64,000 bases of DNA from Candidatus Peribacteria bacterium. GTDB taxonomy: Bacteria; Patescibacteriota; Gracilibacteria; UBA1369; UBA12463. Made by a program: the position numbers and the translations under genes. Below the pieces are notes generated by a model, which searched no databases, was not told the origin of the DNA, and was given only the letters and a program-made list of their open reading frames with translations. The stretch spans positions 1 through 64,000 of the forward strand of contig CALREA010000004.1 of the NCBI GenBank assembly GCA_943355055.1, in the 5' to 3' direction. Shown here piece by piece: positions 10,215 through 16,981 of the stretch (positions are counted from its first letter, which is position 1; each line of letters opens with the position of its first letter).

Positions 10215-11543
10215 ATGTCCAACAAACCTACAAACTACAGCGAAGTAAATTTCGACGGTCTCATCGGCCCATCTCATAACTTCTCCGGATTATCACCTGG
10301 AAATATCGCAAGTGCTACGAACAAAAATACAGAATCTAACCCACTGGAAGCCTGTTTACAAGGACTCAATAAAGCCCGTAAACTCGCACAATTCGGGGTT
10401 CCCCAAGCAGTATTACCCATACAAGAAAGGCCATCACTTCAATATCTTCATGCGCTCGGATACAGGGGAAAAGTAGAAGACATTCTCCGAGAAGTAGATG
10501 ATGCGACACTCCCAAATATCTATGCCGTATCAAGCATGTGGACGGCAAATGCAGCCACGGTAGCACCAAGTACCGATACGAGAGACGGGCGAATGCATAT
10601 CGTCCCGGCAAATCTCGCCTACCAATTTCACCGCTCAACAGAAGCGCAATCAACCATGGCAACATTAGAAAAAATACTTGGAGATATGGCGATAGTACAT
10701 AATCCACTCCCGAGTCATGCTCGATTTGGGGATGAAGGAGCCGCAAACCACATGAGATTTAGCACGGGACCAGGAGAGCCAGGAGTCCATGTATTCGCCT
10801 ATGGTACTGATGGAATAACAAACAAAGATGGAAAATTAGTGAATGGACCACAGATAAATCCCGCACGCCAAACCCGTGTAGCATCAGAAGCGCTCGCTCG
10901 CCTTCTAGACCTTCCATTCGAGCGTGTCGTCTTCGCCCAAACAGCTCCACAAGCAATCGACGCTGGCGTGTTCCATAACGACGTTATATCCACAAACAAT
11001 GAACATGCATGGCTTTTGCATGAACAAGCCTACCAGGACACTCCACGTGTCATTAGCGACGTACAACGTGCCCTGGGGAGAGATTTATTCGTATCAATAG
11101 CGAAAACCGAGGACCTATCACTAACAAACGCAGTAGAAAGCTATGTATTTAACTCTCAGATTGTCACGCTCCCAAACGGCGAAATGATAATGATCTCCCC
11201 TATGGAAGCACAGCAAAATCCTCACGCTCGCGCCTTCATCGAAAAGACTCTCTCTGACCCAAAATGCCCAATATCGAGAGTAGAATATGTGGATCTAAAG
11301 GGAAGTATGAATAACGGCGGAGGACCTGCCTGTTTGCGCCTTCGCGTGAATATGTCCGACATAGAAAAACAACAAGTCCGAGGAAGAGTCTTCCTGGACG
11401 ACGCCCTTTACGGCGAACTAACGCAGTGGGCAAAAAGAAACTATCGAGAAACCATGCTTCCAAAAGACCTGCGCGACCCAAATCTCGTGACGGAATCATT
11501 ACGAGCATTCAGCGAATTGCAGAAAATTCTCCGACTCTCATAA
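10215..11543 (+). CDS. astB: N-succinylarginine dihydrolase (AstB)
   Basis: EVNFDGLIGPSHNFSGLSPGNIAS, MWTANAATVAPSTDT, GDEGAANHMRF, VFHNDVISTNNEH, SMNNGGGPACLRLRV. Confidence 0.93.
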   Translation: MSNKPTNYSEVNFDGLIGPSHNFSGLSPGNIASATNKNTESNPLEACLQGLNKARKLAQFGVPQAVLPIQERPSLQYLHALGYRGKVEDILREVDDATLPNIYAVSSMWTANAATVAPSTDTRDGRMHIVPANLAYQFHRSTEAQSTMATLEKILGDMAIVHNPLPSHARFGDEGAANHMRFSTGPGEPGVHVFAYGTDGITNKDGKLVNGPQINPARQTRVASEALARLLDLPFERVVFAQTAPQAIDAGVFHNDVISTNNEHAWLLHEQAYQDTPRVISDVQRALGRDLFVSIAKTEDLSLTNAVESYVFNSQIVTLPNGEMIMISPMEAQQNPHARAFIEKTLSDPKCPISRVEYVDLKGSMNNGGGPACLRLRVNMSDIEKQQVRGRVFLDDALYGELTQWAKRNYRETMLPKDLRDPNLVTESLRAFSELQKILRLS

Positions 11544-11560: not shown

Positions 11561-12811
11561 CTACTTCGTCGGAGACTTCGACGGCAATGTGCGATAGGTA
11601 ATTTCTGAAGGCATTTTGCCCAAAACCTCCCCCCGTTGAGGGAAATCATTTACCAATAGTCGCAAAGAATCTCTCGGGATACGAGCAAGCCGTTCAGAAA
11701 AAACACCAGGAGTCACTACGGCTCGCAAATTTTGCAAAGCCCGTCGCGTACAGTCTATAGGAAGAAGTATGAGTGCTGACTGCGAAGAAGGATTGCGATA
11801 AACATCTTCCGCCTCTCCATCATCCAAGATATCCACCGTAACCGTGCGATCACCCACAGCCCCCAAGTGAGTACTTCCAGCCCAATTTTGCCCAGCGTCA
11901 ACAGGATTGTATCCTATGCGATTCAAGTCTGGATATGCATGTGCTACATTCACCTGTGCACCTTTTGTTGAGTCACCAAAATTATCAAAAACCGCACGCA
12001 TACGTCCGTGCATTTCAGTAGAAATTTTTAATTCCTTCGGGAAAAAGGCTGAAAAAATATAATTTAAATCCTGGGGTTTAAGTTGCACCAATAACTGATA
12101 ATACAAATGCTCTCGTGTTTGGGCATATACGCCACCAAGGGCACGCGCACAATATTCAGAAATAGGACCAATAGACCCTTGCGCCTGCAAAGCCGGATGG
12201 ACAACTTCATACCAAAAATCATTTCCAAGAGGTACTTTGATTTTCCCTATTTCTGGAATATCTCCCTTGTACAAGGGAGGTAAAAAATCCGCATACACAC
12301 GATGAGGACCAATAATACCTCCAAATTTTCTCGCCATGAGCGCCCGAAGCATCGTCATCGCAACTCCAATTTCACGTTTATCAACCCCGCGATGTCCTTC
12401 AGCAACATACATGCCACCTAGCTCCATCGCATCCTCTCTCAGTGACTCCAGACTCAAGCCATCAGCCGTTTCGGCATAATAATGCTGAGTCCCTTCAGGG
12501 GTACTATGATCGTGATAGATCACAGAGCCAATGGCAGCCCGTACTAATTTCGGCACAGCGCCGTCAAAGTCTTCAAGATTTTTCCCTATCAAGGTAAACC
12601 TCTCCTTCCCCTCACGAAAACTATGCAAAGATTCATTAATAAGATCTTTAGCATGCATTGGGTCACCATTATGTGTTCCTAACCCTTTCCAAAGCTCAGA
12701 AGCATCCTCGAGATCCCTCTCGGCGACCGGATCTATTCGATAAACGCGATGATAGGGATTTACAAACGGTTCATCGGGTGCATTCGCTGGCAAAGAGTCG
12801 TGAGGTGCCAT
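11561..12811 (-). CDS. Arginine N-succinyltransferase-like (AstA family, divergent)
   Basis: GNAT-like region ELGGMYVAEGHRGVDKREIGVAMTMLRALMARKFGGIIGPHRVYADFLPP..., C-terminal YNPVDAG; adjacent and convergent to astB. Confidence 0.6.
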   Translation of the reverse strand: MAPHDSLPANAPDEPFVNPYHRVYRIDPVAERDLEDASELWKGLGTHNGDPMHAKDLINESLHSFREGKERFTLIGKNLEDFDGAVPKLVRAAIGSVIYHDHSTPEGTQHYYAETADGLSLESLREDAMELGGMYVAEGHRGVDKREIGVAMTMLRALMARKFGGIIGPHRVYADFLPPLYKGDIPEIGKIKVPLGNDFWYEVVHPALQAQGSIGPISEYCARALGGVYAQTREHLYYQLLVQLKPQDLNYIFSAFFPKELKISTEMHGRMRAVFDNFGDSTKGAQVNVAHAYPDLNRIGYNPVDAGQNWAGSTHLGAVGDRTVTVDILDDGEAEDVYRNPSSQSALILLPIDCTRRALQNLRAVVTPGVFSERLARIPRDSLRLLVNDFPQRGEVLGKMPSEITYRTLPSKSPTK

Positions 12812-12844: not shown

Positions 12845-13690
12845 TTACCGAGGAAAATCCTTCCCGCGCGCAGCCAACGTAACAGTCGACTCGTCAACAT
12901 CTAAACCTTTTTCTCTGGCCAATTGTAAAAAAGCATCGGTATCAAATGCCTTGCAGCTAAAAATATCAAAATAGAACCCACCATCAGGTCTCGCGTGAAT
13001 TGCGATATGTGATTCAGCGATAATAGCTAATCCATCCCATTGTCGCTGCCCATCTTCACCTTTCGGTTTCAAAACAGTCGGAGTGGAAATAGGCGTCATA
13101 CCAATTTCGAGAGGAATAGCCTCAAGAAATCCATAAATCCAATCAAGATTCCTCTGGGAAGGATTCAGCCGACCATTAAACGTTAAATGTGGACCAAAGG
13201 CTGTCGGAATGACATCCGGATGTTCCACGGGATTACTTCCTCTCAAAAAAGATTCATCACGAGCAACTCCAAACGCGGCTCTCATCGAAACGCGAACAAT
13301 ATCCACCGCAAAATCTCCTCTATAATTCATCATTGCCACATCTACAAACACCGATTTTTTCTTATCAAACGTATGGATCGTCAAATGTCCTCCAGGGAAA
13401 AGCCAACAAGCACTCACGCCACTGTCTTCGGGAATTTTCCCATCAAAATAAGGAATCGTATACGGTCGGTCGAGACTCTCGATACCAAGCTTTTTTGCTA
13501 GAGCATAAGCCGTTTCATAGACACGCGCCATATCCGCCATCTTGTCGGTATCACCATCATAGCCATCGTACATCACATGGGTCACCTGCAAGGAAACACT
13601 CCGTGACACATTATCAATATCCACATTAAAACCAAAATCATCATTGATACCTTCTTCTTGCGCATTCGATATTTCCGGAGAATTCACCAT
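12845..13690 (-). CDS. S-adenosylmethionine decarboxylase (SpeD) family protein, tandem domain
   Basis: GLAIIAESHIAIHARPDGGFYFDIFSCKAFD matches the SpeD ESH self-cleavage site and catalytic Cys; N-terminal half carries a degenerate copy SACWLFPGGHLTIHTFDKKKSVFVDVAM. ATG at 13690 preferred over TTG at 13744. Confidence 0.78.
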   Translation of the reverse strand: MVNSPEISNAQEEGINDDFGFNVDIDNVSRSVSLQVTHVMYDGYDGDTDKMADMARVYETAYALAKKLGIESLDRPYTIPYFDGKIPEDSGVSACWLFPGGHLTIHTFDKKKSVFVDVAMMNYRGDFAVDIVRVSMRAAFGVARDESFLRGSNPVEHPDVIPTAFGPHLTFNGRLNPSQRNLDWIYGFLEAIPLEIGMTPISTPTVLKPKGEDGQRQWDGLAIIAESHIAIHARPDGGFYFDIFSCKAFDTDAFLQLAREKGLDVDESTVTLAARGKDFPR

Positions 13691-13803
13691 GAAGAATAAT
13701 AAAAATATAACAGAACTATAAACACCCCCTAGAATTTTAGTCAAACATTGACATGATAAAAATTTCTATGATACGTTAACACCTCAATAGTTAATTAAAA
13801 AAT

Positions 13804-15801
13804 ATGGAACAACCAATCTATAGCATTACGGATGTACTTTCTTCTGCTGTCGAACGCGCGACCGGCAAGCGACCAAATATCGTACGTGCCAATATAAATA
13901 AAAATGATGCGAATGCTCTTGAGGCGGACTATGGATTCAACGCCTTCCAATTAAAAGAAAATCCAACTCAGGATATACAATCCATAATTGCCAATGCGCG
14001 GGGGGAAATAGAAGTACAGCTTCCGGAGGGAATCACGACTTCAACCGTGGGAAATTTCATCAACTTTAGCGTTTCCAGTGAGCTTCTCGCAGAAACAGCA
14101 GGGAATATCGCTGCGCAACCAAATGGCGGAATCACACCATCGAACCAAAGAACCATGGTAGAATATTTCTCACCAAATACCAATAAACCGGCTCACCTTG
14201 GCCATCTTCGCAATTTAGCTCTTGGAAAAAGTCTTTCATCGACCCTCTCATTTCTCGGACATGAGGTAGTAACCGCGAATCTCACGAACGATCGTGGAGC
14301 CCACATCTGCAAATCTATGTTGGCCTACGAGATGTTTGGGGAAGGACGCACACCTGAATCAACGGGAATCAAAGGTGACCATTTCGTCGGAGATTATTAT
14401 GTGCAATATGAAAAAGCGCTACAAAAAGAAATTGCTCCAATAGTAGCGCGGCTCAGAACCGAACCGGAGAATATAGCCAAGCTACAACGAAAAACCGAGA
14501 TAGAACAAGAACTTGCAACTCTACCGCCAACAGAAAAAGACAAGATAAAACTTCTCAAAAAAGAATTGGAGAAATTAAGCAAACTGGATGAAGAAATCAA
14601 GGACGCGGCAAAAAAAGAATCATCCCTAGAAAAAAAAGTAGGAGAAATGCTCATAAAATGGGAAGCCGGCGATCCGGAAATTCGCGCAACATGGAGACTG
14701 ATGAATGACTGGGTATTAAAGGGGTTCCAAGAAACACTCGACAGAATGAATGTTCATTTCGACGTGGAATATTTCGAATCGGAAATATATAACATGGGAA
14801 GAGATATTGTTATGGAGGGACTGGAAAGAGGCATTTTTGAACGCGATCCAAGTGGCGCCATCATCGCCGATCTTGCAAAATTAGGGATAAAAAAAGAAGG
14901 GAAAAAAGTACTCCTCCGCGCAGACGGCACGAGCGTTTACACCACGCAGGATATCGCCATCGCAAAACTGAAAATAGAAGAACACAAATTGGATAGCAGC
15001 CTCTATATCGTCGCCGGGGAACAAGATGATCACTTTCGCGCACTCTTTGGAATTTTGAAAGCAATAGGCTATGAATGGGTAGATAAGCTCAAGCACTTGT
15101 CCTACGGGATGGTAGAACTCCCGGAAGGCCGTATGAAATCACGTGAAGGAACAGTGGTCGATGTTGATGATTTACTCAACGATCTTCGCGACCGCGTCAA
15201 AGTAATCGCCGCGGAAAAAGGGAATGAAATCATGAGCGATGAAGACGCCGACAAGATTGGAAAAGCCGCAGCGCAATACTATCTCCTCTCCGCACGACCG
15301 GAATCAACAATGAAATTTGACCCCGAAGAGTCTGTAAATTTCGAAGGAAAAACAGGCCCATATATTTTATATCAATACGTCCGAACAGGAAAAATACTGA
15401 AGCAGGCAGTACAGCAGTATAGTCCCTTGGGGGCGGGTCAACAGACCTGTCCCTTGGGGGCGGCCCATCAGAGTTGTCCCTCGGGGGCGGGTGAAGCGAA
15501 AAATCCGGTAGACTTCAGCCTCCTTCAAGAACCCATAGAACACGAACTTCTCCTGAAACTCGTCGAATTCACAGAAAAAATTCGTTCCGTTCAGAAAACC
15601 ATGGATCAAACATTGATCGCCACCTACGTTTTCGAACTCGCGCAAACCTTCTCTAACTTCTACTCGAAGTGTCCGGTTCTCAAGGGTGACAAAACCTCTC
15701 CGGCACTCTCCCAAGCCCGCCTGAAGCTCGTAGAATACACCCATACACTACTCAAGCAATCTCTCGACCTCCTCGCGATTGAAACAGTAGATAGAATGTA
15801 A
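13804..15801 (+). CDS. argS: Arginyl-tRNA synthetase
   Basis: FSPNTNKPAHLGHLRN (HIGH region), GMVELPEGRMKSREGTVV (KMSKS region), C-terminal anticodon-binding domain. Confidence 0.95.
   Translation: MEQPIYSITDVLSSAVERATGKRPNIVRANINKNDANALEADYGFNAFQLKENPTQDIQSIIANARGEIEVQLPEGITTSTVGNFINFSVSSELLAETAGNIAAQPNGGITPSNQRTMVEYFSPNTNKPAHLGHLRNLALGKSLSSTLSFLGHEVVTANLTNDRGAHICKSMLAYEMFGEGRTPESTGIKGDHFVGDYYVQYEKALQKEIAPIVARLRTEPENIAKLQRKTEIEQELATLPPTEKDKIKLLKKELEKLSKLDEEIKDAAKKESSLEKKVGEMLIKWEAGDPEIRATWRLMNDWVLKGFQETLDRMNVHFDVEYFESEIYNMGRDIVMEGLERGIFERDPSGAIIADLAKLGIKKEGKKVLLRADGTSVYTTQDIAIAKLKIEEHKLDSSLYIVAGEQDDHFRALFGILKAIGYEWVDKLKHLSYGMVELPEGRMKSREGTVVDVDDLLNDLRDRVKVIAAEKGNEIMSDEDADKIGKAAAQYYLLSARPESTMKFDPEESVNFEGKTGPYILYQYVRTGKILKQAVQQYSPLGAGQQTCPLGAAHQSCPSGAGEAKNPVDFSLLQEPIEHELLLKLVEFTEKIRSVQKTMDQTLIATYVFELAQTFSNFYSKCPVLKGDKTSPALSQARLKLVEYTHTLLKQSLDLLAIETVDRM
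15422..15494 (+). repeat. In-frame 27-bp tandem repeat (3 units) inside argS
   Basis: GTCCC(T/C)(T/C)GGGGGCGG units starting at 15422, 15449, 15476, encoding YSPLGAGQQ/TCPLGAAHQ/SCPSGAGEA. Confidence 0.85.
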
Positions 15802-15805
15802 ATTT

Positions 15806-16981
15806 TTATCTACCAATTTCCTCTCCCTCAATCAATTCACGGTGGAGAGCAACAACAGCAGACTCATAATCAGCATTCTGGACAACAAGTGTGAAGTTTC
15901 GATCTGCGGAAGTTGTGATTTCCTCGACATTAATACCGGCTCTATCCAAGACACCTGTAATGCTTCGAGAAAGACCGCGCTGCTGCTTCATTCCATTACC
16001 GATACAGGAAACAAGAGCTACTCCTAACTGAGAAACCGTTGTGCCTATGCGATCAAGACGACTTTCTAATTCCTCTCTTTTTGGATGATCGGCATCTATG
16101 GTAAAGGGGAAAGATGATCCACCACCAAACGTAGCCGTCACGGAAATATCCAAATCCTCACACGCCTTCAATACAAGACTCGCAATACCACTTGAATGAG
16201 CCATGCGCGCAGAACTTACCGTATAGAGTACCTGATTATTTTTTCCACTAATGAATTGAACTCCATGAGATTCAATTTCTTCTGAAACACGAGTGCCCTT
16301 ATCTCGAAGATCATAAATACTACGAACCTGAAGCTGAATACCGCGCTGATCAAGACCCACGAGACCACCGGAAGTAAAAGCCCGAGGACCATTGAGCGTA
16401 GACAATTCCAGCGCCTCGCGGAAACTCATTTTCTTTTGTCGTCGTACATGCTGAAAACCATCACGCATTTTCGGAGTATATCCCGGCTCGACTATGGAAG
16501 GATCCGCCGAAAATACTCCAGGCAACTCTCCAAAAACTTTGATGCGAATATCGGAAGAATTAGCTCCAATACGAGTCAGTGCTGCCGCTAGAATACCGGC
16601 ATGTGCATCCAATCCATCAAAACCAAATGTATGACCATGAACACCGGGAAGTCGGCCGAGAATTGGAGTTCCCTCATCATCATCCAGCATTTTGCGGAGA
16701 TTCGAATCTCTAACTTGCTCAACCGCGAGCTCAAAAGCCTCTTCGCTCGTCATATCGCGCACGTCAGACGCGTCATATCGTTCTGAAAAATCCCGTACAT
16801 TCACCAAGCCAAACTCATGATTTATATCAGCAAGAGCTCCGGTCGAACTCGCTACCACAATAGGAAAACGCATCTTACCCTCGCGAGTAAGTATCTGCTT
16901 AACACGATCCGGATGAGCTCTTATAATTTCGTCAGACAAAGGAAGAATAGTATAATTAGCCGTCGAAATGCGATCACCCAT
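15806..16981 (-). CDS. Aspartokinase-like protein with C-terminal ACT domains
   Basis: GRLPGVHGHTFGFDGLDAHAGILAAAL, KVFGELPGVFSADPSIV, ACT-like SSGIASLVLKACEDLDISVTATFGGG; canonical N-terminal KFGGTS not seen. Confidence 0.7.
   Translation of the reverse strand: MGDRISTANYTILPLSDEIIRAHPDRVKQILTREGKMRFPIVVASSTGALADINHEFGLVNVRDFSERYDASDVRDMTSEEAFELAVEQVRDSNLRKMLDDDEGTPILGRLPGVHGHTFGFDGLDAHAGILAAALTRIGANSSDIRIKVFGELPGVFSADPSIVEPGYTPKMRDGFQHVRRQKKMSFREALELSTLNGPRAFTSGGLVGLDQRGIQLQVRSIYDLRDKGTRVSEEIESHGVQFISGKNNQVLYTVSSARMAHSSGIASLVLKACEDLDISVTATFGGGSSFPFTIDADHPKREELESRLDRIGTTVSQLGVALVSCIGNGMKQQRGLSRSITGVLDRAGINVEEITTSADRNFTLVVQNADYESAVVALHRELIEGEEIGR

Follow-up and report, generated by a model that had tools for sequence, protein, structure and literature searches.

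A single gene of an uncultured Candidatus Peribacteria bacterium was confirmed, by sequence comparison, to encode two SpeD domains in one chain, of which the first has lost the residues predicted to be needed for self-cleavage and catalysis and the second has kept them. We consider it fairly probable that the product is an amino-acid decarboxylase with the SpeD fold, pseudo-dimeric and pyruvoyl-dependent, whose most likely substrate is L-arginine (SpeDA-type). The gene is located on the minus strand of the window (the stretch of 64,000 nucleotides that was analyzed) in a genome of 1.14 Mb that, among named genomes, is most closely related to Ca. Peribacteria/Peregrinibacteria MAGs. Translation from the ATG start codon yields 281 amino acids, and translation from an in-frame TTG at 13744 yields 299 amino acids; residue numbers given for the window protein (S111, G119, H124, M139, Asp237, S245, H250 and C264) follow the TTG numbering. 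The gene and its two halves are located as follows:

12845..13690 (to 13744 with the TTG option), minus strand: tandem SpeD protein, defined by the open reading frame and PF02675
13295..13597, minus strand: N-terminal SpeD half, degenerate (PF02675, 41.3 bits; profile against single-domain relatives, E 1.6e-16)
12848..13207, minus strand: C-terminal SpeD half, predicted to be catalytic (PF02675, 32.8 bits; profile against single-domain relatives, E 1.3e-33)

Each half separately exceeds the curated PF02675 cut-off of 25 bits, with whole-genome E-values of 1.5e-10 for the N-half and 6.9e-8 for the C-half, while the whole protein scores 70 bits (E 2.5e-19), far past chance. No other SpeD matches are present in the window genome. 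Direct comparison of the N-half with the C-half produced BLASTP E-values of about 0.02-1 and 6.9% in hhalign. Since the halves have diverged too far for a direct match, their homology was established through the common single-domain family, which the profiles of both halves match end to end.

The AlphaFold2 model of the tandem protein (mean pLDDT 85, pTM 0.82) contains the order of strands and helices E-H-E-E-E-E-H-E twice. The best PDB match found by Foldseek is Thermotoga maritima AdoMetDC (TMt 0.78, E 5.7e-6); chains of the eukaryotic class 2 AdoMetDC aligned poorly with the full model (TMq 0.29-0.32). An unrelated N-terminal domain, named in the earlier note as the finding that would speak against a tandem protein, was not seen, as PF02675 is matched in both halves and the predicted order of strands and helices is repeated.

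The tandem form is not peculiar to the window genome. It belongs to a family of at least 22 proteins, those found here coming from four Peribacteria and 18 Bacilli MAGs. Four out of 59 relatives (the window genome counted) carry it: the window genome (G000) and two others of the same genus (G001 and G003), and one genome of another family (G057). A genome scan retrieved a distant full-length match (28%) in an uncultured Bacilli MAG, and 18 full-length tandem proteins of about 220-295 amino acids were detected among 395 genomes of the class to which this MAG (L013) belongs. In a sample of 380 Patescibacteria genomes, all matches besides the Peribacteria tandems were single-domain. Only single-domain ORFs and no tandems were detected in 115 viral loci, and there was no match on plasmids. 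One viral contig (L211:2301-3072) carries two neighboring SpeD-like genes that are separate; TSN and FSC are intact in the first, and the Ser and Cys positions are changed in the second. Judged by these residues, they are possibly an unfused pair of a live and a dead protein.

In a maximum-likelihood tree, the 18 N-halves included, which represent both phyla, formed one group (100/97), making one old fusion the likely source of the tandem proteins. Monophyly of the C-halves was not rejected (p-AU 0.285), and the same three subgroups were observed among N-halves and C-halves in these short alignments. Both halves fall among prokaryotic and phage sequences of the class 1b-like type.

Within the Peribacteria genus, the tandem protein is only 50-54% identical, compared with 74-97% for flanking genes, the C-half evolving more slowly than the N-half. 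Such fast evolution could be expected of a decaying gene, with an N-half that is heading for loss and a product that plays no enzymatic role. We regard decay as highly improbable, given that none of the four Peribacteria has an interrupted frame, that the catalytic residues are invariant in 22 out of 22 proteins from two phyla and that, in Bacilli, the gene is closely linked to agmatinase.

The C-half motif AESHIAIHARPDGGFYFDIFSC aligns with T. maritima AdoMetDC such that S245, H250 and C264 fall on S63, H68 and C83, the last two of which correspond to a processing and a catalytic residue, respectively. The N-half of the window protein retains the loop IPYFDGKIPEDSGVSA and the sequence GGHLTIHTF; S111 is found at the Ser55 position and H124 at the position of His68, which we take to be equivalent to human His243, while G119 and M139 occupy the Ser63 and Cys83 positions. 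T. maritima Ser55 corresponds to human Ser229 (PMC3975893). The individual sites are:

13412..13414, minus strand: N-half Ser, equivalent of T. maritima Ser55/human Ser229 (22 of 22 tandem proteins)
13388..13390, minus strand: N-half Gly at the pyruvoyl-Ser63 position, no self-cleavage site (translation)
13373..13375, minus strand: N-half His, equivalent of T. maritima His68 (22 of 22 tandem proteins)
13328..13330, minus strand: N-half Met at the Cys83 position, no catalytic Cys (alignment)
13010..13012, minus strand: predicted pyruvoyl-forming Ser of AESHI in the C-half, cleavage expected just before it (alignment with T. maritima Ser63; 22 of 22)
12953..12955, minus strand: predicted catalytic Cys of IFSCK in the C-half (alignment with T. 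maritima Cys83; 22 of 22)

The same distribution is observed throughout the family. Ser at the Ser63 position and Cys at the Cys83 position are each present in all 22 C-halves and in none of the 22 N-halves, and His68 is kept in all 44 halves. Judged by these residues, all 22 proteins have the same polarity, a dead N-half followed by a live C-half. The Ser55 position is Ser in every N-half; in the C-halves, it is Ser or Thr in 16 proteins and Asp in six, including the window protein (Asp237). Thus, the key residues agree with the proposal of the earlier note that the protein is a tandem SpeD fold with one degenerate half, which has lost its Ser and Cys, and one catalytic half, which carries ESH and a Cys.

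Residues common to 18 single-domain relatives are split between the halves: Y..G...ED.G and HTFP are found in N-halves and IAxSHI and FSC in C-halves. This split suggests one composite active site. In a rough tally, the anti-correlation of losses between the halves did not exceed the counts expected from independence, and we therefore call the halves complementary only with respect to catalytic and loop residues. In eukaryotic AdoMetDC, two SpeD halves share an active site to which one contributes the pyruvoyl Ser and the other the processing His, and the prokaryotic enzymes carry the union of the catalytic residue sets of both halves (PMC1282579). The tandem protein shows this split with the halves exchanged, Ser and Cys being kept in one and Ser and His in the other, and we consider a single cleavage with a single composite site most likely.

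The main mechanistic rival is that only the C-half is active and that the N-half is a pseudoenzyme (a fused "prozyme") with a regulatory or structural role and contributes no residues to the active site. A precedent exists in Trypanosoma brucei, where a dead AdoMetDC paralogue allosterically activates the live one (PMC5201418), and the C-half does have its own His68 in all 22 proteins and Ser or Thr at the Ser55 position in most of them. We nevertheless consider a purely regulatory N-half rather unlikely: the active site is common to the two halves in eukaryotic AdoMetDC (PMC1282579), the residues that all 22 N-halves keep are exactly Ser55 and His68, and the C-half of the window protein has Asp237 at the Ser55 position.

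According to the composite-site mechanism that we favor, the tandem chain would fold on itself like a dimer of single-domain SpeD. Self-cleavage would occur once, at the C-half Ser, and leave two fragments: an N-terminal one of about 226 residues (ATG numbering) with the whole N-half and the first part of the C-half, and a C-terminal one of about 55 residues that carries the pyruvoyl group. Being unable to cleave, the N-half would provide the processing Ser and His and residues of the substrate pocket, so that one composite active site rather than two would be formed. Arginine would then be bound to the pyruvoyl group as a Schiff base, give off CO2 and receive a proton from the Cys, whereupon agmatine would be released. 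In Bacilli, agmatinase or agmatine deiminase would carry agmatine on towards putrescine; in the lineage of the window, AstB or ADI/DDAH-like neighbors are candidates for the next enzyme.

The earlier note had set the protein beside the bacterial class 1b SpeD. The label of class 1b AdoMetDC probably names the wrong activity, as gene context points to arginine decarboxylation. No match to spermidine synthase (SpeE, PF01564) was found in the window genome or in G001 and G003, the two genomes of its genus that also carry the tandem gene. The window protein scores 45.9 bits with TIGR03330, the AdoMetDC equivalog, which is below the cut-off of 75.65; a control Bacilli SpeD adjoining speE (L106) scores 143.6. 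A conserved Pro separates AdoMetDC from ADC (PMC10407285). This Pro is present in six out of six class 1b sequences but in only one of 22 tandem C-halves, that of the window protein (position 71). Of the six typical class 1b SpeDs that the searches for tandem genes also returned, five adjoin speE, whereas no speE adjoins a tandem gene in the loci read. The missing spermidine synthase, the score below the TIGR03330 cut-off and the lack of conservation of the Pro make S-adenosylmethionine an unlikely substrate, and we conclude that tandem SpeD is probably not an AdoMetDC. The shared ESH motif, the Pro of the window protein and a spermidine synthase in one Bacilli genome (G539) would fit a true S-adenosylmethionine decarboxylase that is functionally convergent with the eukaryotic class 2 enzyme, but against the genomic evidence and the variable Pro we judge this to be quite improbable. 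Two single-domain phage SpeD genes in viral loci (L068:6231-7064 and L076:2765-3583) are located near a spermidine-synthase-like gene and therefore probably encode true AdoMetDCs.

The substrate is indicated most clearly by gene context in Bacilli. An agmatinase gene is located directly upstream of the tandem gene in 14 of the 18 Bacilli, mostly overlapping it or separated by a few bases. Each of the seven neighbors tested had its best NCBIfam score with agmatinase and was far below the arginase cut-off. The remaining four genomes encode agmatine deiminase, in one case about 4 kb upstream of the tandem gene. Agmatinase or agmatine deiminase is hence encoded by 18 out of 18 Bacilli tandem genomes and by none of the four Peribacteria. 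The same logic, from agmatine genes to SpeDA, was used by Li et al. and confirmed biochemically for other SpeDAs (PMC10407285). From the adjoining agmatinase genes and the agmatine deiminases of the other four Bacilli, we infer a pyruvoyl arginine decarboxylase. Next to agmatinase, such an enzyme would constitute a putrescine route, which the automatic label of S-adenosylmethionine decarboxylase would conceal in uncultured Bacilli.

The Peribacteria differ in this respect. Neither agmatinase (PF00491) nor agmatine deiminase (PF04371) was found in the four tandem genomes, which makes the substrate less sure and the SpeDA argument weaker in the lineage of the window. By the rule of Li et al., a genome with neither enzyme points to ornithine decarboxylase (PMC10407285). 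A family search of the window genome revealed no HSS/CASDH above cut-off. The neighbors of the tandem gene in the window are:

10215..11543, plus strand: AstB, N-succinylarginine dihydrolase family, convergent neighbor and possible functional partner (PF04996, 517 bits)
11561..12811, minus strand: 416-amino-acid protein, next gene downstream and possible functional partner (the sister genome G001 has a 90% identical protein in the corresponding position)
13804..15801, plus strand: argS, arginine-tRNA ligase, divergent neighbor, context only (TIGR00456 above cut-off)

The AstB of the window is 42% identical to E. coli AstB and is present in only two of 59 relatives, each time beside tandem SpeD. 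The 416-amino-acid protein, which has no match in Pfam, NCBIfam or the PDB, occurs only where AstB is also present. The idea, formed by eye, that it is AstA found no support (BLASTP against E. coli AstA, E 2.1; pLDDT 28 for AlphaFold2 with a two-row alignment). The argS gene adjoins the tandem gene in the three other Peribacteria loci too. Elsewhere, the tandem gene has as neighbors an ADI/DDAH-like protein (G003) or a group of DDAH/CtlX-like proteins (G057). The Peribacteria neighbors fit arginine chemistry and are compatible with either arginine or ornithine as a substrate.

Several further loci were noted. Near a tandem SpeD, L012:867-4157 (MFXB01000045.1) encodes a DDAH-like protein, a 412-amino-acid protein and a CtlX-type hydrolase, and this cluster adjoins part of argininosuccinate lyase. 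An aspartokinase-like ORF is located at 15806-16981 on the minus strand of the window; Pfam finds only its ACT domain and does not recognize the N-terminal kinase part. At G000:C19:13582-14160 (L086), a LysA-like PLP decarboxylase that scores below the LysA cut-off is divergent from an ATP-grasp-like ORF, and G001 and G003 have retained this pair.

With the same tandem architecture, the substrate could instead be L-ornithine (SpeDC-type), the neighboring guanidine-modifying enzyme making ornithine or a precursor that is then converted to putrescine. Beyond the missing agmatine enzymes, this would agree with neighbors of the AstB and ADI/DDAH/ArgZ-like types, which act on arginine-type substrates, and a single-domain Peribacteria SpeD has proved to be an ornithine decarboxylase (PMC10407285). 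Four SpeDC residues, Gln, Thr, Phe and Tyr, were judged by comparison with L039 and L041. Many C-halves have the Tyr, which lies just ahead of the FSC core, but Gln and Thr, which this comparison marks as SpeDC-specific, are absent from the C-halves. Since members of the same clade in Bacilli adjoin agmatinase and not arginase, we regard ornithine as an unlikely substrate and keep arginine as the preferred one. The most extended version of the arginine reading is put forward tentatively. Tandem SpeD may form an old SpeD class of its own, obligately pseudo-dimeric, with a dead N-half and a live C-half that share a composite site. It would go back to a single fusion of reverse polarity, independent of the eukaryotic one, and act on arginine, and in Peribacteria the agmatine would pass to a guanidine-modifying enzyme for which no such role is known (AstB together with the 416-amino-acid protein, or an ADI/DDAH-like protein). 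If this were true, Peribacteria would possess a new route to putrescine or to an acylated product.

The earlier note had likened the protein to the duplicated eukaryotic enzyme and had considered a fused form unusual for bacteria. The likeness holds for the design. As in the eukaryotic class 2 AdoMetDC (human, potato), there is an internal duplication with one self-cleavage site (predicted for the tandem protein) and catalytic residues divided between the halves. In the class 2 enzyme, however, the pyruvoyl Ser and the Cys are in the N-half, whereas they are in the C-half of the tandem protein, and the inferred substrate differs. Since the halves are in opposite order and both are class 1b-like, the fusion is most simply explained as independent of the eukaryotic one. 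Bacteria thus seem to have built the design of one dead and one live half separately from the human enzyme and in reverse order.

Fusion as such is already known, and bacterial SpeD fusions with a live N-half have been published: SpeD-SpeDC fusions occur in Desulfotignum phosphitoxidans and Omnitrophica OLB16, and Victivallis vadensis has one with a degraded C-half (PMC10407285). Like the tandem protein, they are chains of 270-320 amino acids made up of two SpeD homologues, and one half may be dead; unlike it, they have a live AdoMetDC N-half and an ODC or degraded C-half and are located upstream of speE (PMC10407285). The tandem protein has a dead N-half and a live C-half, and its gene adjoins no speE and occurs in the vicinity of genes for agmatine or guanidine enzymes. 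The main text of PMC10407285 does not mention Bacillota or a degraded N-half, and in the open-licence literature we found no account of a SpeD fusion with the reversed order or of an arginine decarboxylase in fused form. We therefore rate as new the reversed polarity, the separate clade and the probable fused arginine decarboxylase, bacterial SpeD fusions being already known.

Single-domain SpeDA proteins share with the tandem protein the fold, the predicted cofactor, the link to agmatinase or agmatine deiminase and the loss of the AdoMetDC-specific Pro, but are single short domains mostly clustered with speY (PMC10407285, PMC9992855); speY is absent from the Peribacteria genomes examined. In the T. 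brucei AdoMetDC/prozyme pair, a dead paralogue likewise partners a live one, but the genes are separate, the effect is allosteric and both partners are themselves fused class 2 proteins (PMC5201418). For eukaryotic AdoMetDC, which is a drug target, the question is how a symmetric homodimer turned into a fused enzyme with an active half and a pseudo half. The published fusion model was built on fusions with a dead C-half, and the tandem family looks like a second, independent solution in the reverse order. As the tandem halves are still close in sequence to their single-domain relatives, the division of labor between them can be tested by mutating either half.
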